From an uncultured Actinomycetes bacterium (GTDB lineage Bacteria > Actinomycetota > Acidimicrobiia > Acidimicrobiales > RAAP-2), in contig CAIKAC010000002.1 of assembly GCA_903825305.1 (NCBI GenBank), positions 62,001 through 126,000 on the forward strand: 64,000 nucleotides of DNA, in the 5' to 3' direction. The translations under genes were made by a program, and so were the position numbers. A model generated the notes under the pieces. It was not told the origin of the DNA. It did not search any database and saw only the letters and a list, made by a program, of their open reading frames with translations. Shown in pieces: positions 8,992-22,149 of the stretch. Position 1 is the stretch's first letter; every line of letters begins with the position of its first letter.

Positions 8992-11900
8992 TCAGTGGGT
9001 GGTCTTGTGCGTCACCCGGTGATGTTTCTTGGGCACCGTGACGCTGACGGATTTTGCATTGCCGGTGACGGGCAAGGAAGTATTCGTCGCTGCCATGGAG
9101 GCAGTAACTGAGCAACGTCCAGCATCGATGAACCTGACTGTGAGTCCCGAAACCGAGCACACCATGGGCGTGCTGGTGGAGAGCGAAATGTGACCAGGCG
9201 ATGCGGGGCTTACCAGTGCACTGAAGTGTCCTCCAACAGTTCCGTGAACCGGGGCATTCGTGATGACCGGCTTTGCTGGTGACGTCTTCACCATCACCAC
9301 CTGAGGGCTGCCATTTTGCGCAAGATAGCGAGCACTTTGGGCTACATGACCGACAATGACACAACGGCCGACGCTGAGGAATTTAACGTTGTGGCCTTGG
9401 ATCTTGCATACCTTGGGTGTTGTGGTGGTGATCGTTGACGTGCCATCAGAGTCAGTTGCAACTGCGAGCGATCGGGTCGTTCCCATCGCAACGCTGGAGG
9501 CCAAACCAGTAACACTTACCGACGATGGCGTGCGGCGCGAGACGCTAAAAGACTGGCGCGAACCGGAACGAGCCAAGTAGTTAGTCGACTGGGCAACCGA
9601 AGCCGTCACCGTGCAGGTGCCAACGGCGAGATAGGTGATCGTGAGTCCACTCACCCCACAGATAGTGGGGGTGTTGCTGAGGATGGTCTTGGTTCCATCG
9701 CCCGTGGTGCTCACCGTCGCCGTGAAGGATGCACCCACATAGGCGGTACTTGGCAGATTTGAGATCTGTGGTGAACTTGCGGTGCCGAGATACACGGGGA
9801 AACTTTGCGTCGAGCCAGTGGCGTCAAAATACGTTGTTCCGAATCCAACTTGAGCCGTGAGCGAACACGTTCCTGACCCCACAAAGCTGACGCTCAAGCC
9901 GCTGGTCGTGCACACACTTTGGGTGCTCGACGAAACACTCTTGACGCCATCGCCATTGGTGGAGACCGTAGCGGTGTAGGTAGCGCCATCAGTCTCAAGT
10001 GACGGAAGGTTGGTAATGGTGGGCGTCGTGGGGTTGGGCAGCGGTGACCATTGTGCTGTGAACGTCACTGGCGATGAACCCATGGTGTAGTTGTCGCCGC
10101 CATGGTAGGTCGTGGTGCCATCTGACCATCCGGTAAAGGTATAGCCAGGGTTCGAAAGCCCACTGCCACTCGCTACTTGGAATTGAGCATTGGTTGCCTC
10201 ATCGACTTGGGTGGGCATGGTGCCAGAGTTGGCGCTGTCGGTGTAGGTCACTGAGAACAGTGGCGCATAGACGACATGAATGGTGAGCTGTTGGACAATG
10301 GGTCGCTGCACGTTATTTTCAGCGATGATGCTTACGGTGTAGTCCCCAACGGGCACCGATTGGTCCACTTGACCACTCAGGGTCATATGCCCCCCCGAGG
10401 TTTGATACAGGTTCAGTCCTGTCGGTAGGTAACCGGAATAAGTCATCGTCGGAGCTGGTGTTCCGGTTGCGGTGATGGCAAACGATGCGGAAGCCGTCTG
10501 TGACATGGTGGTGCTTGCTACCGACGTAATTGCAGGCACCGAACCGGCAACTTGCGTCCACTGCTGAGCCTGGATGCACCCACTGTCAGAAGCCCAGATG
10601 GTGCCCGACGAATCAGCTGCCAGCCAGCGGCTCCAATAGCCTGTGTACATCGGGGGCTGGGTGTACCACGTGCCGTTGACCAACTCAGATTCGCTGAGCC
10701 AGTCACCATTGGTGCCAATCCAGACCGCACCATTGGCGGTGACCACCATGGTGGAAGGGTCAACATTGGCTGCCGCCAAGTCCAGGCTGGTTGGAGCATG
10801 CGCGGTCCATGTCCCGTTGCTTTGCGTAACTTGCTGGAGTTGACCCGCGTTTGCTTCGTGCGACCAGCCTTGTTCTGACGAGTAAGTAACCAAGATGGAA
10901 CCATCCGTGTAGAGCGCCATCACCATGTCCAAACCCGATGCCGCCATCTGGATGGGAGTTTGCGCGCTGTAGGAACCAGAGGAATAGGCGAACTCTTGAA
11001 GGGAGCCAGGTCCACTCAGACCTACCCAAACATCACCACTGCGGTCAACGAGAACACCTGTGGGATCAGACCCGCTTGGGACCGACAACACCTGGCCAGC
11101 GGTAATCGTGCCATTAACCAGTGAGTAGTAGGTGATCGTATTGGCCGTAGCGTCAGCGAGCCATACTCCCGTCGTTGCGGCTGCAGTAATGGTGGTCGTA
11201 TTGGTCCCTACGGGCAATGGGGACGAAAGCGTCCAGGTGCCCGCATTGTCTATTTCGGCTTGAATGGTTTGGTCATTTTTGTTGAGAAACCAAAGATTGC
11301 CGTCAGCCGAACCCGTGAGATCGGTGGGGTTATTGCCTACGGTCACCTGCTGGGTCCGAGGCGTGCTCGGCGTGGAGGGTGATAGTTGCTGAATAAAGCT
11401 GGTGGTACTCGCTGCCCACAGTGATCCGTCACTGGTCATCGCGATCGCATTGGTGCCGCAGAAATTTTGACCACCCAAGGTGATCCCTGACACCGGGGTG
11501 GGAAGTGCTGTCGTACCGCCGGTAATGGTGAGGGTGATGGCTTGCGTGGTCACCACACCGCCATTGGAGGCATTGATATGCAACTGGTAGGTGCCAGCGG
11601 AATCGACGGAGGGGCTACCGGAAATGGTTGCCGTTCCATCGTTGTTGTCCGTGAAGCTAAGGCCGTAAGGAAGGGGGTCAGCCACCGACAGGGTGGGCGT
11701 TGGAAAGCCACCGGTCGTCGTTACCGTGAAGGAGCCTTGCTGGCCGGCACTAAAAGATGCGGTATTCGCACTCGTGAATGACGATGACACGATGGGTTTT
11801 TGAACAATTTCCTGAACGGTGCCGTCGCCTCGGTTGACGACCCACACGTTGCCATCAGCACCAGTGGTGATGGCCCAAGGATCTGAACCAACGTGAATAG

Positions 11901-12864
11901 GCGTTTGCGGGGTTACCGTGCCATTGACTGATGAAAATTGCTGGACAATGTTCTCATGGCCAGCACCATCGGCCATCCAAATGCTTCCGTCTCCAGCTGT
12001 GGTAATTGCTTCGCCGTAGTGTCCATTGGAATCAATTCGAGGCTGAATGTTCCACGTACCGTTGGAGTAGGTGGCTTGTTGAATACCGTTTTGGCTTGTG
12101 GTCCAGATGGAACCGTCAGTGCCTTGCGTCATCCAAATCGAGTAGTGAGCCCAACTGCTGGGGTTAAAGCCAGTGCCATTGGAAAGTGCGGTCCACGTGC
12201 CATTTACCTTGGTGATCTGGATGAGCACAATGTCAAAGAAGGACACCCAAATATTTCCATCTGAAGTGGCGTAAATCTGATGAGGGCTTCCGCCCGAGAA
12301 CGTCACTGATGCTCCCGCAGTCCACGTCCCGTTCACCAAGGTGAATTCTTCTGCCTCATCATTGTTCAAGAGCACCCACAAACCACCGTCCGTGCCTACC
12401 GTCAAACTGACCGCTGCGGTGGTTGAGGCCAAGGTGGTGGCAACTGATCCGTTGAGGATTTCTTGGACACCTGCATCGGTGGCGACCCACACGCCACCAT
12501 CAGATGTCGCCGCCAATGCGCGAGGGTTATTGCCAACGCTGATCGGCGATTGGGCCATCCATGTATTGCTGACATCAGTGAGTTCTTGAACCGTGTTGGA
12601 ACCTGAGTTGGCAACCCACATATTTCCCGAGGTGTCAGGAATCATGGCGACGGGTTGGCTGCCCACGGCAATCGCCGGAAGTGGACCCCATGCCAACTGC
12701 GTTGAGCCCCCCGAACTCGCTGCTGCCGGTAGCACACTAAGGCCGAAGAGCCCGATTGCGAAAGTTACGGTTGCTGTCAGCGCACGTGCGCTGAATCGAT
12801 TCAGGCGACGAGTGAAACTCGGGCCGTTAGCCGAGTGTGCGGGCACCGTTGAGGGTGTCATCAT
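8992..12864 (-). CDS. Secreted double beta-propeller / Ig-like repeat protein (1290 aa)
   Basis: A large exported protein. Residues 1-50 are a long signal peptide (RRLNRFSAR, a hydrophobic run, then AAA-S). Residues about 55-350 are a virginiamycin-B-lyase-like/NHL beta-propeller, with repeated 'G.VWVANSGSNTVQE' type blades. A putative Ig (He_PIG) domain follows at about 355-450 (PLPYGLSFTDNNDGTATISG). A second propeller is at about 455-770, then another He_PIG domain. Next comes one InlB/Flg_new-type repeat (TFTGWSDGTTTY ... FTAQW), then four degenerate repeats of 80-85 aa, each with a cysteine pair (VC..SGL....GTCS). It ends in a cationic His-rich tail (VPKKHHRVTHKTTH) with no LPxTG or TM anchor. 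AAGGAG is 6 nt upstream of the ATG. Probably cell-surface or released; binding or lyase function is not established. It is divergent from a TetR-type regulator. Confidence 0.85.
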   Translation of the reverse strand: MMTPSTVPAHSANGPSFTRRLNRFSARALTATVTFAIGLFGLSVLPAAASSGGSTQLAWGPLPAIAVGSQPVAMIPDTSGNMWVANSGSNTVQELTDVSNTWMAQSPISVGNNPRALAATSDGGVWVATDAGVQEILNGSVATTLASTTAAVSLTVGTDGGLWVLLNNDEAEEFTLVNGTWTAGASVTFSGGSPHQIYATSDGNIWVSFFDIVLIQITKVNGTWTALSNGTGFNPSSWAHYSIWMTQGTDGSIWTTSQNGIQQATYSNGTWNIQPRIDSNGHYGEAITTAGDGSIWMADGAGHENIVQQFSSVNGTVTPQTPIHVGSDPWAITTGADGNVWVVNRGDGTVQEIVQKPIVSSSFTSANTASFSAGQQGSFTVTTTGGFPTPTLSVADPLPYGLSFTDNNDGTATISGSPSVDSAGTYQLHINASNGGVVTTQAITLTITGGTTALPTPVSGITLGGQNFCGTNAIAMTSDGSLWAASTTSFIQQLSPSTPSTPRTQQVTVGNNPTDLTGSADGNLWFLNKNDQTIQAEIDNAGTWTLSSPLPVGTNTTTITAAATTGVWLADATANTITYYSLVNGTITAGQVLSVPSGSDPTGVLVDRSGDVWVGLSGPGSLQEFAYSSGSYSAQTPIQMAASGLDMVMALYTDGSILVTYSSEQGWSHEANAGQLQQVTQSNGTWTAHAPTSLDLAAANVDPSTMVVTANGAVWIGTNGDWLSESELVNGTWYTQPPMYTGYWSRWLAADSSGTIWASDSGCIQAQQWTQVAGSVPAITSVASTTMSQTASASFAITATGTPAPTMTYSGYLPTGLNLYQTSGGHMTLSGQVDQSVPVGDYTVSIIAENNVQRPIVQQLTIHVVYAPLFSVTYTDSANSGTMPTQVDEATNAQFQVASGSGLSNPGYTFTGWSDGTTTYHGGDNYTMGSSPVTFTAQWSPLPNPTTPTITNLPSLETDGATYTATVSTNGDGVKSVSSSTQSVCTTSGLSVSFVGSGTCSLTAQVGFGTTYFDATGSTQSFPVYLGTASSPQISNLPSTAYVGASFTATVSTTGDGTKTILSNTPTICGVSGLTITYLAVGTCTVTASVAQSTNYLARSGSRQSFSVSRRTPSSVSVTGLASSVAMGTTRSLAVATDSDGTSTITTTTPKVCKIQGHNVKFLSVGRCVIVGHVAQSARYLAQNGSPQVVMVKTSPAKPVITNAPVHGTVGGHFSALVSPASPGHISLSTSTPMVCSVSGLTVRFIDAGRCSVTASMAATNTSLPVTGNAKSVSVTVPKKHHRVTHKTTH

Positions 12865-12890
12865 GGAATTCTCCTTGTGGGATGCTAGAA

Positions 12891-12948
12891 AGCAAATACT
12901 TTGCTACCTAAGGTTGCAATGGTAGCGGTAGGGCTCTTTGGTAGCAAA
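12891..12948. promoter_or_regulatory. Nested palindromes between the propeller gene and the tetR-like gene (candidate operator)
   Basis: Three inverted repeats are interleaved: AGCAAA-TAC-TTTGCT (12891-12905), GCTACC (12903-12908) with GGTAGC (12921-12926), and TTTGCTACC (12900-12908) with GGTAGCAAA (12940-12948). They occupy the 147-nt divergent intergenic region upstream of both starts. Control by the adjacent TetR-family protein is inferred. Confidence 0.5.
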
Positions 12949-13011
12949 CATTTGGATTCTGAACTGCAACAGTGGGTTGGCTAAGTATGGATATGGAAAG
13001 GGGGTCAATGC

Positions 13012-13668
13012 ATGAGTGAGGATGTGAAAACTCCTCAGCGTCGATCGCGCGTTTCTTCTGAGGATGCTCGGGCACACCTTATTAATGCGGTACTCGAGAT
13101 TGTTCGAACGGGACCGTTCGATTCGCTTACGAGCCGCGCCATTGCCAGCAAAGCAAATTTGGTTCCCCAGGCAATCTTTCGCAACTTCGCCACCCTCGAC
13201 GATCTCTATATTGAGGCTGCTCGAGAGTTGATTCATCGGGGTGTCAAAGAGTGGTCTCCCGAGATGCTGGAAACCGGGGCGCCCGTTCTCAATGAGTATC
13301 TCGTTGATTTCACTCGCTTCACCACCTGGATGAGCCTTGCCAAGGGGATTACCTCTGTTGTCGGCGAAGCAGAACACGCGGTGATGCGCCAAGCCGCAGC
13401 CGGCCTATTTTCCTTTGATTCCACCTTGCCCGAGCAAACTAAAGAGGCGTTTCTCGCCCTCAACGTCTTCTTTGGGACTGGTTTCATGTTGCTCGGGCCA
13501 GAGTCACTCGGGAGCGCGAACCCTGATCCCTTCTCCGTATTCGAGCTCATGCGCTACCTCCACATGCATTTGGTCGAAGCAACTGAGTGGCTTGGCTGGA
13601 GTACTCGTGATGTAGGCAAGTCGGACACAACTTCGCCCGGCTCCCCTGAAGCCAGCCCCTCAAGCTGA
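13012..13668 (+). CDS. TetR-family transcriptional regulator
   Basis: A 218-aa regulator. The N-terminal DNA-binding domain spans about residues 18-65: helix 1 'ARAHLINAVLEIVRTGPFDSL', then the helix-turn-helix 'TSRAIASKANLVPQAIFRNFATLDDLY' pattern typical of TetR (usually 'T.R.IA..AGVS...LY.HF..K..L'). The C-terminal ligand domain is not recognisable beyond the fold. AAAGGGGG (12997-13004) is a good ribosome site before the ATG. It stands divergent from the large secreted propeller gene, with palindromes between them, so autoregulation and control of that gene are likely. The final about 15 residues are Ser/Pro/Thr-rich and probably disordered. Confidence 0.85.
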   Translation: MSEDVKTPQRRSRVSSEDARAHLINAVLEIVRTGPFDSLTSRAIASKANLVPQAIFRNFATLDDLYIEAARELIHRGVKEWSPEMLETGAPVLNEYLVDFTRFTTWMSLAKGITSVVGEAEHAVMRQAAAGLFSFDSTLPEQTKEAFLALNVFFGTGFMLLGPESLGSANPDPFSVFELMRYLHMHLVEATEWLGWSTRDVGKSDTTSPGSPEASPSS

Positions 13669-13857: not shown

Positions 13858-16800
13858 ATGCGAACTGTGCGCGCGGCCCTCGCCACCTTGGTGGTCTTGT
13901 CATCGATGCTCATTGGCACGACCGAGGCCATGGCATCGAATGTGGCACCGGTATCGATCTCATTCTTGAGTGCGACGGGTCAAAATCTTTCCACGCTGCG
14001 TCTTCACGCCCAAAGTCCTGATTTGGTCATTGTGAAGGTGACGAACAACTCGTCGAATCCATCGAGCTCGCAAGTTGATCCGACCCTGTCTTTTTCTGAT
14101 TCTCCTGGGATCACGGTTTCCGCGGTGGAGCTTTCTGGCGCGACGATCTCTAAATCAGCCCGAAGCATGTGGCCTTGCTCTAAAGGATCCACCGTGGTCT
14201 GCCAACTTCGCACTCCATCTGGCGGGCCCTATGTCATCCAACCCAATACCAGCGTGTTGGCAGCCGTCATTTTTTCCAGTGGTGCCATCACGCCTGGAAC
14301 ACCTGGTCTGAGCGTTTCTGCTGCGGGTGCCTTGTCAGGTGTTGGCTCAGGCAACGTTCGTGAAACCGTCGTCATGGGCCAACCTACGGATCCCGTAGGA
14401 GCGTCGGGATTGCGTCTGTTGGTTGCGGGCGATTCCATCGTCACTGCTGGCCAATCGGCCAGCCTTACCTACACGCTTGATGATGGTGGTCGCTCTGCTA
14501 TTCGACCAGCGCGTCGTGGAGCCGCATCGGTCACCTTGAGCAAATTGTTGCCCGGGTCGATTATTCGCTGGAGGGCAACGGGAACTGATTGGAAGTGCAC
14601 AGGTAAGCAGAACGCATCACCAACGTGTACTACGTCGTCAACCGTGGCCACGGGGAGCCATAGCGCTCCGCTGCAGTTGAGTTACGTAGAAGCTCCCGGA
14701 TTGGCCTCGACCCAGCAACACCCCATCGCGCCGAAATATCTCCTTTGGCAAGTTGGCGTGCTCACCCACATGGCCACGTCGCGCACCATTGTTGGAAAGG
14801 TGCGCGAAAGTGTTGCGCTCAAGCCACGCGTGGCTGATCAGTTGGAGATTGCGGCTCGGGTAACGGGATCGAGTCTGCTGACGCCTGGCGCATCAACGAC
14901 CATGGAAGTAGACCACCGGGCTCTGGCGGGCACCGTCGGGGCTGTGAAAGACCGCATCACCTTGCCGTCTGGTGTCTCGGTGGCGCGAGCCGTTTCGAGT
15001 AACGGCTGGCGCTGCCCGGCAGGCGCCAAGGTAATCACCTGTACCCACGCAGCGAGTCTGCGAACCAGCGTGTCGGGAAACCGCTATTCGCTTACCCTCA
15101 GCTCAAAATCCAGCGTCCAAGACGGCGTAGCCAAGGTCTCTGTACTTTCTCAAGATGCGGTGGATGGGGCACGGTCCAGCTCGAGCGTGCCTCTGTTTTT
15201 CCTGAGTTTCGGCGGCCCGCGGCTCGTGGTGAATCGCTACCCATCGACCACGAACTACGCAGCTATTTCCAATGGCTCACTGCTCGGCCTCACCTCGGGT
15301 GTAGCCCAAAGCGTGGTGTATCGCGTCACCAATGCGGGGGATAAGCCCATCGCCGCAAAGTCGGTACTGCACGTTTCCCTTGGCCTCACCCAAGCCGGCC
15401 AGACCCTCAACGCGTCGTTGGCGAGCGCCCACGAAGCCGGGCTGCGCTTGAGTGTTGTTCATCAACAAGCTCGATGCACCGCCGGAGCTTTGGGCAGTTG
15501 GTCTTGTGCCATTACCTTGTCCAAGGGATTAGCGGCTGGTGCGCTCTCTGCCCCTTTCGTATTTTCGGTCTCGGTAGGTACACCCTTGGCATCGGCGTTG
15601 CTGTTGAATCTGAGTCCCACGGTGCAAGCCCAAATCCAAGCCGGCCAACTCTTCGCCGCTACCGCATCTTTGTCGGGTGATTCAACGCACCCGCCGAGTG
15701 TGAGCCAACACTTGGATGTATCGGCTCATTCCGCATCGGATCTTGAGCCGCTGCTGAGCACATCTGCCCAGCTGGTAGCGGGCGGTTCGAGTGTGACAGC
15801 CACGGCGCGCATTGAGAACTTTGGGAGTGCTACCCAAGGTGCGAGTTCGGTGACCTACTCCATCCCACCTTCTCTGCAGGCGAGCGTGGCTCCCAATTCC
15901 TCTTGTACGTTGATGGCGCACATGCTTGGTGGCCAAATGGTCACCTGTAGTGTCTCCTCGATTCCGGCCGCCACACCCGGTCAAGCGGGAACGAGGCCGA
16001 CGCCTGCCATCTCAGGGCCAATGACCTTTACTCTGAGCGACCTCAGCGCGGTTGGCCAAGTTGTCATTCCGGTATCGGTCGCAGATGCCAGCACGACGCA
16101 TCCGATCACCACGGCCGTGACCTTGGCGGCATCATCGGCGCCGCTAGTTGCGTTGCATGCGCCGAGCGATCTTGCGGTCACGCAATCGGGAACACCTGGT
16201 GCACTCGAGCTTTCATTCCGAACCCCGAGCAATGCTGCTCCTAATCAGCTCTACCTTGCCACCTTGTGTACCAATCAGGCCATGACACAGTCGTGCGTCA
16301 CTCGCGACGTCACGGTGACCAAGACGGTGACGGGGTTGCTGCCGGCGACTACGTATTGGGTGACAGTCACCGCACTTGCTTCGCCAGGCTACGTTGCTGC
16401 CACGTCGAGCATTGTTTCGGCCGCCGTATCATCCGCGCCCATCCCCGTGGCACGCAGACATGATTCGTCAAACTCTAAGTACTTGAGCATTCCGCCAGCC
16501 TTGGGAAGCAATTTCTGTGACTTGGTGTCGCAACTCACCGCTTTGGCGCCACCCACCACGCTTGCTGCACCCCTTGGCGGTGGTATTTCGGTGAGCTTGA
16601 GTGGGGTCACCTTGTCGAACAATTCTTGCAGCGCTAGTGGGACCACGATCAGCTTCACCGGTGGCAGTTTGGACCTCAACGGGACGTACTCACTCTCTTT
16701 GGGAGCCGGCACCGTTACCTCGTCGGGATTCAGTATTAGTCAAGCAACCTTGACGACGCCAGCAGCATGGTCGGGTGGACCCACCGTATTGACCGGTTCC

Positions 16801-19800
16801 AACATTACGGTGACGCTCGCCGGAGCGTCTAACAATGCGACGTCAGCTCTGAGCGGGACCTTTAGTGCCAACACGGCATTGGGTCTACCTCTTGGTTCGG
16901 GATGGAGCGCTACGACCACCATCGTGGTTCACGACGCCAACGGTGTGACCTCTGGATTGGGATTGAGTGTTGCGGCGAATGATGGATCGAATGCCTTTGC
17001 GGTGTCAGGTACAGCATCGCTCACCGGGACGTATCAGGTCTCGGTATCGGGCTCCATGAACCTTGGCGGTGCATCGCTCAGTTCGCTGTCGGGCACGTGG
17101 ACCTCAGGTTCGGCCATGACCGCCCAGGCAAGGCTCTCTGTTGGTGGAACCACCATTGCAGTGAACCTGTCGTACACCTCGACGTCAACGTGGTCGATAA
17201 AAGGCTCTGGCTCATTCTCTCTCTTTGGCACGACCTCTGCCGCAGTATCAGGAATGGTGAGTGATACCAACGGCACCGTGTCCGGATCTCTTGCGAGTTC
17301 CATCACGGCAGCCGTCGCATCGGGGATGACGACGACCTTGACCTTGAGCTGGACACCGAGTGATACGACCACCGTGGTCGGAACGGGCTCACTGACCCTT
17401 GGGGCTCAAGGGTCACTTGCGACGACGCTGTCGTACACCTCGCCGTCTGATTACTCCTTTAGCGTCACCGGCCAGACCACGCTCGATCAAGTGACCTTGA
17501 CCAATATTTCGGGTAGCTATCAAGCTGGTGGCTCATTGAATGCGTCAGCACAAGTCATCGTTGGCGGCGCCCCGCTCTCGGTTTCGCTTTCCTACCAAGA
17601 TCCCACTGATTGGTCGCTCCAAGCCAATGGTTCACTCGCTATGTTCGCGAACACCCAAGCTGCAGCTTCGGGCACCATTGTTGATGTTGCAGGAACGGTG
17701 TCGGGGGCGTTCAGTTTGAGCGTGACCGGTGGTGAACTCGCTCCTTCTATCACGGCTGACATGAGTGCGACCTGGACGCCGACCACCGTGGTCAATGGGG
17801 TACAAATTGCGACCAGCGGTCTTACGGGAACGGCAACCATTACAGCGGGAACCGCTGGATCGCTGAGTGCGAGTTTCTCGTACACGAGTGCTACGAACTA
17901 TCAATTTGCCATTACCTCGGGATCCATTACCGTCGACACCGTTTCGATCAGCAACGTCAGCGGCAGTATTGCCAATGGTGGAGTACTGAGTATCTCGGGC
18001 ACGATCACCATCGGGGGTGCCTCACTCAGCGTGACTGAGGCCTATACCAATGACACGACGTGGACACTGAGCGCGAACTCCAATCTGTCGCTCTTTGGTG
18101 CCACTGCGTCGGCGACGGGATCTATCAGCGAAGGCGTGCCGAGTGGTGGTGGCTCAGCGGTAGTAACGGGTGGCTTGTTGCTCAGCGTGAATGCATCCCT
18201 GCCGGGTTCGATGACCCTTACCGCATCAATGAATTGGACGCCATCGGCGGGCCTGAGCGGTACGGGAACGCTGAATCTTGGCTCCCCGGGAACGCTGGCG
18301 GCCACGATTACCTATGTCGATGCCAGCGATTATGCCCTGAGCGTTTCAGGGAGTTTGAGTCTTGGTGCCATGACCTTGAACTCAGTGAGTGGCACCTATG
18401 GCATTGGCTCGTTGGCGCCATCTGCTCCCCATGGAGCACCGTCCTATGCCTTGGTGGCCTCGGCGAGCGTCTCGATTGCTGATACCTCGCTCACGATCGC
18501 ACTTGATTACGCGAATGCTCGCACGTGGCAGTTTGATGCCACGAGCACCTACACCATTTTTGGCGCAGCACTCAGTGGGTCGGGCCTCATTGCTGAGAAC
18601 AACGGAACCGTGACGGGAACGCTGACGTTCTCACTTGCCAATGCCGTAACGGTGGCTCCGGGGGCTGTACTTTCCAATACGCAGCTGAGTTGGGACATCA
18701 CCACCGCTTCCTTGATCGGCTCGAGTCAGCTCGCTGTCGGAGGCGTGACCCTTGCTATGGCGGTGAGTTATCACAACGCTCACAACTGGTCACTGAGCGT
18801 GACGGCGGGCTCGACGGGAAGCTTGTCGTTGGCTCCGGGTTTTTCTCTTACTGCGGGCGCATTCACGGGAACGCTTGGTGAGGCCAGTGGCGTGCTTGCT
18901 TGGTCGCTTCAAGCCACCGCATCTTCGGTGACCCTGGTTAATGGCGCGGATGGTATGAGTGCATCGCTCGGGGCCACCACTATTGCTCTCTCATCGAGTT
19001 GCCCGACGAATCTCGGGAACTTGCCATGTCCATCAGGGTCGAATTCGTTGTATCTCGGGTTTTCCACCACCTTGAATGTGACCTTGGGTAACGGACTCAG
19101 TCCCCAAACGATTTCGGCAGTTGGTGCGTACGGCGTTGATTCGCACTCGTTTGTTTTAGGCGCATCATTGTCAACCATCTCTATTGGATCTGGCCTGCTC
19201 AGCATCTCGGGCGCGCAATTGGTCATGGCGTATGGGGCAGGAGCTGCTACGCCGAGCACTTCGGGGGTGAGCTTTTCAGATTCCAATGCCGGGAAGGTCA
19301 ACGGCTTTGCTGTCTTTGCTACCGGCCAAGTAACCCTGAATGTTCCTGGAGATTCAGCGACAGTGGGGGTCACCTTCACCTATGCCAACGGTGGTTTTGT
19401 GGTCGAGGCGACGTTGCCAAGTGGTGGCACAATCGGCGCCACCGGAGCGCAGCTGCAGAGTTTGGCCTACGTGAGTGTCCCTCAAACCATCACCTTGGGT
19501 TCGCTGGTTCGGTCGGTCACTGCCCCTGGGTTGGTGTTTGGCGGAACCATTGCACTTCCCACGTGGCTTGATACCTACCTCGGCCTCGCACCGGGGGCGA
19601 GTGCCTCACTGTTTGCGAGCTACCAAAGCGCCTCGGTCTACGCCGTGAGTGCCGTGTTCAACATTGGCTTGCCAGTCGACACTGGATCATCACAATTTGG
19701 TTTTAGCTTTACGAGCTTTACCTTGACCTTGGGATCCAATGGGTCGGGCCCTTATCAACAGGTCAGCGCGACGGGCACCATGGCGGTCTCGGGGAGCGCG

Positions 19801-22149
19801 GGAGATCAGTCTGCGATCGCCGTGACGGCCATGTTGAGTTATATCGACGCAACCGAAACCATTGCCGGATCCATATCTGCGGTGGGCCAAGGTGGTGCGA
19901 GCATTTGGGACAACGCCTTTGGCATGACCGGCCTCGACATCACTGGCTTTGCCATCTCGCTCTCGGTGGAGCTCGCCACTACGCCGTTACCGCTCCCGGG
20001 TCTTGGCTTGGCAGCGTCGTTTACCTTGGCGGGGTCATCATCGGGACTCTGGAGCTTTCTTGGGGTGGCGCCAAATACCCCGATGACCGCAATAGTGAAT
20101 TTACAAGCGTCGAATCCCTGTATGGACATCTCCATTGGCACGGCCGGGAGTTCCACGACGGCGATCGATGTATTTAATGCAGGTGTGCTCAAGGCCAACT
20201 ACGCCAATTTGATCGTGGCTCCCGATGGCTGCCAAGTCGGCGTCTACAGCGTGGCCCCTGGCATTGCTCTCGATTTCCAGGGAAGTTTCCTCAATACACC
20301 CGTGAATTTCCAAACCACAGTTGAAGTATCTCCAACACTGTCTATAGAGGGTTCACTTTCCATCGGGGCCTTCTCCGCAGGCCCCGTGAACTTTTCAGCC
20401 ACCACTGTTTGCATTGCTGCGGGAATTGCTTCGAGTGTTCAACCTTGTTCCGATATTCAATCGGGCACCCAAGCGGTGATCGGATTTAGTGGTGGCATCT
20501 CGGTGCTGGGCACCACGGTTGATCTCTCGGGGGCCGTGAGCGCCACCGCCATGACCTTGAGCGGAACGATCGCCAATCTCGATACCGGTGGTTTTGGTAT
20601 TTCGAGTCTGGTCTTTAGCGGGACCTATCAATCGAGTCCGCTCTCCTTCGCCTTGAGCGAGACGGGCAACTTTGAAGTCTTTGGCACCGCTATTGCTGAG
20701 TCAGCATCGTTTAGCTACGCCAACGGCCAAGTAGACACCATGGCCTTCTCGGTAGCAGTCCCCAACATCGCTTTGGATTCGGCAGCGAGTCTGAACGGCA
20801 CGATCAGCTTCTACGCCAGTTCCGTAACGGGAGAAGTAGACGTAGCCGCATCGGGGTCAATTTCGGTAGGTGGATTTACGTTGAGCATTAACGCATGCCC
20901 CAACGGTTCGCCTGGCCTCACCATTACATCTAACGGCGCGACACTCTGTTCGGCGACCATGTACGCGTGGGGTGTCTTCACGGCAAATGTTTCGGGGCAA
21001 CTGTGGTGGGGCACACCACCATCTGGGCAACTCATCTCTAACGCCGTAACGGGAGCGACGACTACAGCATCTGCGGGAGATTTTTCGTTCTCAGTGGAGA
21101 ACGTCACGATGGGGATTCAGGGATTCAGTGTGCAGGGCACGGCTGCGCTGAGTGACATCGGTGGCAATTTCTCGGCCATGTTGTCCCTTGGCCTGTACCT
21201 GTCGAATGCCGCGTCGCAACCTGCCATTGAAGTCCAGGGATCGTTCACGCAAAACGGTGCATTTAGCTTGACGGGAAGTGGCACCGTTGATTTGGGTGGC
21301 CTTGGGGTCAATCTCAACGTGACGGCGGCGTCGACCTATCACGACAGTGGCTCGGTGAGCGCGTCGGGGAGTTTGGCGATTGCTGGCACCACCATCAATG
21401 TGGCAGGAAGTTTCAGTGCAGCCTCGGGTGGCATCAGCGCCTCGCTGAGTGGGACGGCTGATTTTGCCCCGGGTGGTTTTAATCTCGGAAACGTCACCAC
21501 CTCAGTTACGGTGAGTCCGGGCTACGAAGACATCACCTTGTCGGCGTCGGTCAATTTGGGCAATGTCCTCACAGCCGGTATTAACACCAACATCGGCATC
21601 GTCAATGGACAAGCAGCGATGTATCTCACCGTTGATGCTGGCTTCAACATGCCAGGCATCAACATCAGCGGTAACCTGACCTTGACCAACTGCAGCTCAA
21701 GTTCGTGTACGTCGCTGACGGGATTCTCCGCATCCATTGGTGGTCAGTTCACTGACTTCACGGGAGCGAATTACAGCTTCGGTTCGGTTGCTGTCAATAC
21801 CAACTGGAGTTTCTCGTTCAACGTGAGCGGATGGACCAATAACTGCAGTGGGGTCGTGAACACTGGCGCTAATGAGTGGCAGGCGTGTTTTGGTGGAAGT
21901 TATTCGCTCACGGTGAGCTCATCTTCCCCTTACTTGACCTTTGCGGTGAACTTCCAAGCGTCCGTGAATGCGGCCAACTGGGAAGTCAACACCTCGTGTT
22001 CAGGGAGTTGGTATCCCTCGTCGTGGAACTGCAACACGAGTTCATACTTTGGAGGTTGGTACAGCGTTGCCTCCGTGGGGGTGAGTGTTGATAGTCAAGG
22101 GAATCTGACGGCAAGTTTTGCTGGCGTCAACATGAGTATTCAGATTTAG
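13858..22149 (+). CDS. Giant secreted beta-repeat protein (2763 aa)
   Basis: A very long exported protein of unknown function. Residues 1-26 are a signal peptide (MRTVRAALATLVVLSSMLIG, cleavage near AMAS). Residues about 30-760 hold several Ig-like/DUF11-type modules with paired cysteines. Residues about 765-865 resemble one fibronectin type III domain (PSDLAVTQ ... GLLPATTYWVTVTA). Residues about 880-2640 are tandem modules of roughly 90-110 aa, rich in Gly, Ser, Thr and Ala, with recurring motifs such as 'SYTSPSDYSFSVTG' and 'GTVSGS', suggesting a stacked beta structure. The last about 120 residues are Trp/Cys-rich and non-repetitive. No LPxTG motif, TM anchor or catalytic site is visible. 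The ATG is not preceded by a strong ribosome site; a TACCCT at 13828 could be a -10. An adhesin or matrix role is a guess. Confidence 0.8.
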   Translation: MRTVRAALATLVVLSSMLIGTTEAMASNVAPVSISFLSATGQNLSTLRLHAQSPDLVIVKVTNNSSNPSSSQVDPTLSFSDSPGITVSAVELSGATISKSARSMWPCSKGSTVVCQLRTPSGGPYVIQPNTSVLAAVIFSSGAITPGTPGLSVSAAGALSGVGSGNVRETVVMGQPTDPVGASGLRLLVAGDSIVTAGQSASLTYTLDDGGRSAIRPARRGAASVTLSKLLPGSIIRWRATGTDWKCTGKQNASPTCTTSSTVATGSHSAPLQLSYVEAPGLASTQQHPIAPKYLLWQVGVLTHMATSRTIVGKVRESVALKPRVADQLEIAARVTGSSLLTPGASTTMEVDHRALAGTVGAVKDRITLPSGVSVARAVSSNGWRCPAGAKVITCTHAASLRTSVSGNRYSLTLSSKSSVQDGVAKVSVLSQDAVDGARSSSSVPLFFLSFGGPRLVVNRYPSTTNYAAISNGSLLGLTSGVAQSVVYRVTNAGDKPIAAKSVLHVSLGLTQAGQTLNASLASAHEAGLRLSVVHQQARCTAGALGSWSCAITLSKGLAAGALSAPFVFSVSVGTPLASALLLNLSPTVQAQIQAGQLFAATASLSGDSTHPPSVSQHLDVSAHSASDLEPLLSTSAQLVAGGSSVTATARIENFGSATQGASSVTYSIPPSLQASVAPNSSCTLMAHMLGGQMVTCSVSSIPAATPGQAGTRPTPAISGPMTFTLSDLSAVGQVVIPVSVADASTTHPITTAVTLAASSAPLVALHAPSDLAVTQSGTPGALELSFRTPSNAAPNQLYLATLCTNQAMTQSCVTRDVTVTKTVTGLLPATTYWVTVTALASPGYVAATSSIVSAAVSSAPIPVARRHDSSNSKYLSIPPALGSNFCDLVSQLTALAPPTTLAAPLGGGISVSLSGVTLSNNSCSASGTTISFTGGSLDLNGTYSLSLGAGTVTSSGFSISQATLTTPAAWSGGPTVLTGSNITVTLAGASNNATSALSGTFSANTALGLPLGSGWSATTTIVVHDANGVTSGLGLSVAANDGSNAFAVSGTASLTGTYQVSVSGSMNLGGASLSSLSGTWTSGSAMTAQARLSVGGTTIAVNLSYTSTSTWSIKGSGSFSLFGTTSAAVSGMVSDTNGTVSGSLASSITAAVASGMTTTLTLSWTPSDTTTVVGTGSLTLGAQGSLATTLSYTSPSDYSFSVTGQTTLDQVTLTNISGSYQAGGSLNASAQVIVGGAPLSVSLSYQDPTDWSLQANGSLAMFANTQAAASGTIVDVAGTVSGAFSLSVTGGELAPSITADMSATWTPTTVVNGVQIATSGLTGTATITAGTAGSLSASFSYTSATNYQFAITSGSITVDTVSISNVSGSIANGGVLSISGTITIGGASLSVTEAYTNDTTWTLSANSNLSLFGATASATGSISEGVPSGGGSAVVTGGLLLSVNASLPGSMTLTASMNWTPSAGLSGTGTLNLGSPGTLAATITYVDASDYALSVSGSLSLGAMTLNSVSGTYGIGSLAPSAPHGAPSYALVASASVSIADTSLTIALDYANARTWQFDATSTYTIFGAALSGSGLIAENNGTVTGTLTFSLANAVTVAPGAVLSNTQLSWDITTASLIGSSQLAVGGVTLAMAVSYHNAHNWSLSVTAGSTGSLSLAPGFSLTAGAFTGTLGEASGVLAWSLQATASSVTLVNGADGMSASLGATTIALSSSCPTNLGNLPCPSGSNSLYLGFSTTLNVTLGNGLSPQTISAVGAYGVDSHSFVLGASLSTISIGSGLLSISGAQLVMAYGAGAATPSTSGVSFSDSNAGKVNGFAVFATGQVTLNVPGDSATVGVTFTYANGGFVVEATLPSGGTIGATGAQLQSLAYVSVPQTITLGSLVRSVTAPGLVFGGTIALPTWLDTYLGLAPGASASLFASYQSASVYAVSAVFNIGLPVDTGSSQFGFSFTSFTLTLGSNGSGPYQQVSATGTMAVSGSAGDQSAIAVTAMLSYIDATETIAGSISAVGQGGASIWDNAFGMTGLDITGFAISLSVELATTPLPLPGLGLAASFTLAGSSSGLWSFLGVAPNTPMTAIVNLQASNPCMDISIGTAGSSTTAIDVFNAGVLKANYANLIVAPDGCQVGVYSVAPGIALDFQGSFLNTPVNFQTTVEVSPTLSIEGSLSIGAFSAGPVNFSATTVCIAAGIASSVQPCSDIQSGTQAVIGFSGGISVLGTTVDLSGAVSATAMTLSGTIANLDTGGFGISSLVFSGTYQSSPLSFALSETGNFEVFGTAIAESASFSYANGQVDTMAFSVAVPNIALDSAASLNGTISFYASSVTGEVDVAASGSISVGGFTLSINACPNGSPGLTITSNGATLCSATMYAWGVFTANVSGQLWWGTPPSGQLISNAVTGATTTASAGDFSFSVENVTMGIQGFSVQGTAALSDIGGNFSAMLSLGLYLSNAASQPAIEVQGSFTQNGAFSLTGSGTVDLGGLGVNLNVTAASTYHDSGSVSASGSLAIAGTTINVAGSFSAASGGISASLSGTADFAPGGFNLGNVTTSVTVSPGYEDITLSASVNLGNVLTAGINTNIGIVNGQAAMYLTVDAGFNMPGINISGNLTLTNCSSSSCTSLTGFSASIGGQFTDFTGANYSFGSVAVNTNWSFSFNVSGWTNNCSGVVNTGANEWQACFGGSYSLTVSSSSPYLTFAVNFQASVNAANWEVNTSCSGSWYPSSWNCNTSSYFGGWYSVASVGVSVDSQGNLTASFAGVNMSIQI

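Follow-up and report, generated by a model that had tools for sequence, protein, structure and literature searches.

The 147-bp gap between the genes for a TetR-type regulator and a divergent propeller-type surface protein probably contains a TetR operator together with a partly decayed inverted copy of it, and from the first of these sites (O1) the regulator would repress the surface gene until a ligand releases it. The gap lies in the window, the whole 64-kb stretch of DNA that was analyzed, and separates the predicted start codons of the surface-protein ORF (8992-12864, minus strand) and the TetR ORF (13012-13668, plus strand). The surface-protein ORF, which is the proposed target, codes for 1290 aa with a signal-like N-terminus and Pfam matches to Vgb_lyase, Reg_prop, NHL and He_PIG, and the regulator is 218 aa long. 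Directly 3' of tetR is an ORF coding for a 2763-aa surface-type protein (13858-22149, plus strand) that possibly forms one operon with tetR. A promoter scan of 12700-13100 found no sigma-70-like promoter. There is also a perfect 18-bp palindrome, TCAGCGCACGTGCGCTGA, at 12777-12794, within the surface-gene sequence that codes for the N-terminal part of the protein.

A candidate operator in the divergent gap

The proposed main operator O1 (12901-12919, no strand assigned) reads TTGCTACC-TAA-GGTTGCAA, with 7 of 8 arm pairs, a T-T mismatch within the arms and a 3-nt centre, and is the best palindrome of this centre length in the gap. When the window was scored with an operator matrix built from eight distinct sites of relatives, which were picked by eye and did not include the window, O1 was the top match of the whole 64 kb. 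Specifically, it ranks first in every matrix setting, though the margin over the next window match is sometimes small (14.9 versus about 11.6-11.7, 16.4 versus 14.7 and 15.7 versus 14.6 under three pseudocount settings, and 15.2 versus 14.8 with a larger training set), and shuffles of the gap scored as high as O1 in 1, 1 and 0 of 2000 cases under the three pseudocount settings. The matches ranked second to fourth, at 11270, 12596 and 10700, all fall inside the propeller coding sequence of the surface gene and were judged to be coding coincidences of this repetitive sequence. Note that the 15.2 of O1 is below the best sites of ten relatives, which score 22.5-30.3 with the relative in question omitted from the training set. 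Seven clade members without the motif score from -3.3 to 15.5, where the 15.5, as high as O1, belongs to L085, a TetR paralog in the window's own genome that has its own palindrome. This paralog (also L032) has TGTCTCC-att-GGAGACA upstream and is next to a reverse-strand ORF whose N-terminus is secretion-like. The O1 site is identical to the site of the relative L066, TTGCCATCTAAGATGGCAA, at 15 of 19 positions. Comparison with relatives thus supports the operator-like sequence, its register and the gene order around it, and the palindromic operator that the gap appears to have in common with relatives, as in a tetR/tetA-type unit, would be O1. The O1 palindrome was absent from the list given in a preliminary description of this DNA, yet it has the best comparative support. 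That description had placed its palindromes in a divergent TetR promoter region, which is borne out by a gap that lies between divergent TetR and surface genes and carries sequence resembling a TetR-type operator.

The regulator and its relatives

The regulator has the N-terminal TetR_N helix-turn-helix that characterizes the TetR family, and the window protein alone matches this Pfam domain with E 2.8e-4 and 21 bits, which is under the curated 24. A 16-row profile of the subfamily matched 76 PDB sequences at E <= 0.001 and, among the matches listed, most are named as TetR-family or transcriptional regulators. The AlphaFold model of the protein consists of helices only (mean pLDDT 85.9, pTM 0.75), and the Foldseek matches listed for it are mostly named TetR-family regulators (best E 1.1e-3, TM-score relative to the query 0.34-0.57). 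KstR and EilR, both present as DNA complexes among the top fold matches, appear to share a TetR fold with the window protein (query TM-score 0.50-0.57) but have only 14-18% identity with it at Foldseek E values above 1e-3. Assignment to the TetR family agrees with the subfamily profile and is compatible with the predicted model. The window protein sits on a long branch (2.12 changes per column) within a group supported at 87/93 and is 21-28% identical to 15 aligned relatives, so the transfer of specificity from these relatives is uncertain. No match to it was observed in the same-genus genome G001 at the thresholds used, and a contig scan with the window TetR alone as query found no relative.

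Among 172 genomes of the family, 18 have homologs that match the profile at E <= 1e-15; of 397 genomes sampled from the order, 11 do so at E <= 1e-25, and five of these 11 are themselves from the family. Nine contigs with close relatives are from metagenome genomes labeled Acidimicrobiaceae or 'uncultured actinobacterium', and judging from the isolate names these come from lakes. After removal of duplicates and of the 15 of 60 HMM matches that were under 125 bits, 45 regulators including that of the window were kept; L042 has too little upstream DNA and was left out of the palindrome counts, which leaves 44 upstream regions with the window included. A palindrome with at least 7 of 8 pairs and a 3-nt centre is present in 20 of these 44 regions, compared with an average of 4.4 and no more than 9 in 40 shuffle rounds. 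The other odd centres of 1, 5 and 7 nt, which share its symmetry axis, are also frequent at this stringency (19, 14 and 13 regions, respectively). Even centres of 0, 2, 4, 6, 8, 10 and 12 nt occur in 3, 3, 7, 7, 4, 5 and 6 regions, with shuffle means of 3.4-4.0 and maxima of 7-11. The centre-3 palindrome is seen in 10 of 17 members of the window's clade, window excluded (shuffle mean 1.4, maximum 4), and in 9 of 26 members of the other clade (shuffle mean 2.3, maximum 8), with 100 shuffles each.

Ten related TetR genes from the same family and order have an upstream 19-bp site with a 3-nt centre that reads roughly TTGyCAyC-tww-GrTGrCAA. Five of these ten have paired operators, spaced 35 bp apart in L044, 33 bp in L057 and L062, and 30 bp in L078 and L082. 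The operators of L082 are exact inverted copies of each other, with 17-nt arms and a total span of 47 bp that none of 100 shuffles equalled, and L082 is the only one of the five where an inverted operator order is clear. A self-inverted alignment is not significant in L044, L057 and L062, where 62, 39 and 27 of 100 shuffles were as good, and the stretch aligned for L057 did not reach its sites. Very long perfect palindromes occur upstream of tetR in L058, L064, L065 and L063 (arms of 23, 20, 19 and 14 nt) around the same operator core, and may represent two operators that overlap or have arisen by template switching.

The inverted copy and competing readings of the repeats

The gap also contains an outer inverted repeat, TTTGCTACCTAAG/CTTTGGTAGCAAA, which spans 49 bp with 13-nt arms that match at 12 of 13 positions, a similar plan to the 47-bp operator pair of L082. 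The left arm (12900-12912, plus strand) covers the O1 left half, its centre and the first base of its right half, and the right arm (12936-12948, minus strand) covers the outer half and centre of a proposed second operator, O2. This repeat exceeds chance because no inverted repeat with 13-nt arms and a 12/13 match appeared in 300 dinucleotide shuffles of the gap and because, at its own spacing, it occurs only once in the whole window, with 0 mismatches; a match with up to three mismatches was seen in 3 of 100 window shuffles. An extension to a 74-bp inverted repeat (12887-12960) is only modest since 25 of 2000 shuffles were as good. We propose that the pairing of TTTGCTACC (12900-12908) with GGTAGCAAA (12940-12948) reflects the O1 left half and the outer half of a decayed O2. 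This putative O2 (12929-12947, no strand assigned) reads TAGGGCTC-TTT-GGTAGCAA and would be an inverted O1 copy with its outer half and centre intact, while its inner half (12929-12936) no longer matches O1. A second full operator, as found in tetR/tetA, is thus absent as O2 keeps one half, and such an operator is not a requirement of a tetR/tetA-type unit. The proposed case for O2 is made by the repeat and the spacing, its matrix score being unremarkable.

It is possible, if rather unlikely, that only O1 is real and that O2, the middle GGTAGC and the first palindrome of the preliminary description are chance sequences or non-binding relics. Such a reading would agree with the matrix score of O2, which at 4.2 is below the weaker operators of the five paired relatives (20.3-22.6) and no better than the second-best matches of single-operator relatives (8.9 in L063 and 5.2 in L066), and with the presence of a single operator in five of the ten motif-bearing relatives. 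However, it leaves the 12/13 inverted repeat, never seen in the gap shuffles, to chance, and it does not account for the position of O2 close to that of the second operators in five relatives, given that the O1 and O2 centres are 28 bp apart versus 30-35 bp in those relatives. The least probable reading is that the repeats form an RNA hairpin in the surface-gene leader and are not DNA sites. The presumed minus-strand leader does fold somewhat better than shuffles (z -2.12, 6 of 200 as good), but this is expected of any inverted repeat, the plus strand folds like its own shuffles (z -0.71), and an Rfam search of 12600-13300 gave no match. The odd-centre symmetry also recurs across different TetR proteins.

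The preliminary description had offered another reading, in which three interleaved palindromes share half-sites and two TetR dimers pick among alternative half-site pairings to switch the surface gene. All of its words are present, with AGCAAA-TAC-TTTGCT at 12891-12905, GCTACC at 12903-12908 and GGTAGC at 12921-12926 in addition to the outer pair described above, and the outer repeat is not random, but there is a better way to read them than as three palindromes. A perfect 6-3-6 palindrome occurs in 10 of 300 gap shuffles and is marginally above chance, and a 6-nt palindrome as such is unremarkable, since 59 of 300 have one when the centre may be anything from 0 to 8 nt. The register of AGCAAA-TAC-TTTGCT (the 19-mer from 12889) scores -14.9 versus 15.2 for O1, because its half-sites point the opposite way, and 12891-12905 is probably not an operator. 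A switch among these pairings would require gaps of 3, 12 and 31 nt, with one pairing of reversed polarity, whereas in the register that the window shares with the relatives the half-site is TTGCTACC facing a 3-nt centre, the spacing that palindromes of the relatives favour (20 of the 44 regions). The suggested check on conservation of GGTAGC speaks partly against this reading since the exact word is found in only 5 of 44 upstream regions, while the equivalent half-site G[AG]TG[AG]CAA is found in 10 of 44. Two dimers are conceivable because five of the ten motif-bearing relatives carry two operators, but a choice between pairings is unsupported, and we regard this switch as highly improbable. 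We propose instead that the interleaving arises largely from the presence of two palindromic operators with cross-matching half-sites. The extra cross-pairings arise because two palindromic operators adjoin, which covers the third palindrome of the preliminary description and part of the second. The half-site-like GGTAGC (12921-12926, plus strand) between O1 and O2 is an extra word that this two-operator reading does not account for.

From what is known of the TetR family, the regulator most likely represses both the surface gene and itself from O1. A TetR dimer would bind O1, which is centred 46 nt upstream of the surface-gene start codon, and in doing so would block the surface-gene promoter and probably that of the regulator as well. 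A second dimer may bind the degenerate O2, which is nearer to tetR, either weakly or with help from the first. A ligand would then free TetR from the DNA and turn on the surface gene. DNA binding by the regulator, its repression of the surface gene and of itself, a role for O2 and release by a ligand are all modeled on other TetR-family members.

A search of the 1.94-Mb genome for a wider regulon found GGTAGCAAA at 15 places, equal to a reversed control word (15). A widened operator pattern with up to two mismatches returned O1 on both strands and five other places, or seven rows versus two for the reversed control; the exact match of O1 to this pattern is partly by construction because the pattern includes window letters. 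None of the five other places makes a convincing regulon as judged by ORF overlap and, for L088, by its protein and flanking DNA. Just past the window end, at 1501-1509 of L005, a TTTGCTACC word is located in a divergent gap, 30 nt upstream of a secreted-type ORF that is rich in glycine; this word lacks a second half and shows no genome-wide enrichment.

Surface-protein partners of the TetR subfamily

A TetR-family regulator is reported to be most likely to control a divergent neighbour when the two are less than 200 bp apart (PMC3511530). The divergent surface gene as likely target fits this rule because the gap, measured between predicted starts, is 147 bp. The gap fits an already known arrangement, the divergent TetR unit. 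As described in the same source, a tetR/tetA-type unit likewise has a divergent TetR and likely target, a gap under 200 bp and palindromic operators, with two of 15 bp in tetR/tetA itself. The differences are that the tetR/tetA target is a pump whereas that of the window is a secreted propeller-type protein, and that the second operator of the window is half decayed. The Streptomyces regulators ActR, SGR3979 and SCO7222 also have two to three palindromes in a divergent gap, and the SGR3979 site TGCGTAA-TGC-TTACGCA has a 3-nt centre as does O1, but the sequences of the three are unrelated to those of the window (PMC3511530).

Of greater interest is that, in Acidimicrobiaceae, members of this TetR subfamily are repeatedly found head-to-head with secreted surface proteins. 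In a crude scan, a divergent ORF of 150 aa or more that starts no further than 320 nt away was seen for 26 of the 45 regulators, window included, and 22 of these 26 ORFs have at least 10 strongly hydrophobic residues in a 14-residue stretch. The scan returned no divergent ORF for the other 19 and misses some, as L028 (= L039) and L032 (= L085) have divergent secretion-type ORFs when inspected by eye. All ten motif-bearing relatives are among the 22; their divergent ORFs are at least 370 aa long and, by crude count, include a hydrophobic stretch within the first 110 residues. For L062, the count picked up a stretch other than the signal-like one, which was seen separately. A Pfam scan of three divergent partners identified an NHL propeller in L044 (window's clade) and L014 (other clade) and CARDB in L078. 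The divergent partners in L066, L078, L082 and L076 are homologs of the 2763-aa ORF of the window, with L066 giving the best match (E 3.5e-36 over 337 aa). The 8992-12864 protein, in a BLASTP search of the relatives' divergent ORFs of at least 150 aa (1e-3), matched only L050 (E 9e-4) and L051 (2e-4), both weakly, which indicates that the propeller partners are alike in kind and not close homologs. These matches tie the TetR type by homology to the large surface family and by kind to propeller proteins. Literature searches found no publication on TetR paired with NHL-repeat or beta-propeller partners, and nothing related on Acidimicrobi TetR, cell surface proteins and freshwater.

For an uncharacterized TetR subfamily, this analysis provides a testable operator and a connection to propeller proteins that are secreted and to very large surface proteins in Acidimicrobiaceae. 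It also indicates that side-by-side palindromic operators can mimic interleaved palindromes, so a switching mechanism is not needed. More tentatively, lineage-specific TetR regulators may have radiated in freshwater Acidimicrobiaceae. Many of these would be head-to-head with a large secreted propeller or surface protein of their own, and each would have its own 3-nt-centre operator, sometimes paired, which would amount to modular switching of individual surface proteins. The window would then be one such module, with a decaying second operator and with its large partner downstream of tetR, not opposite it.
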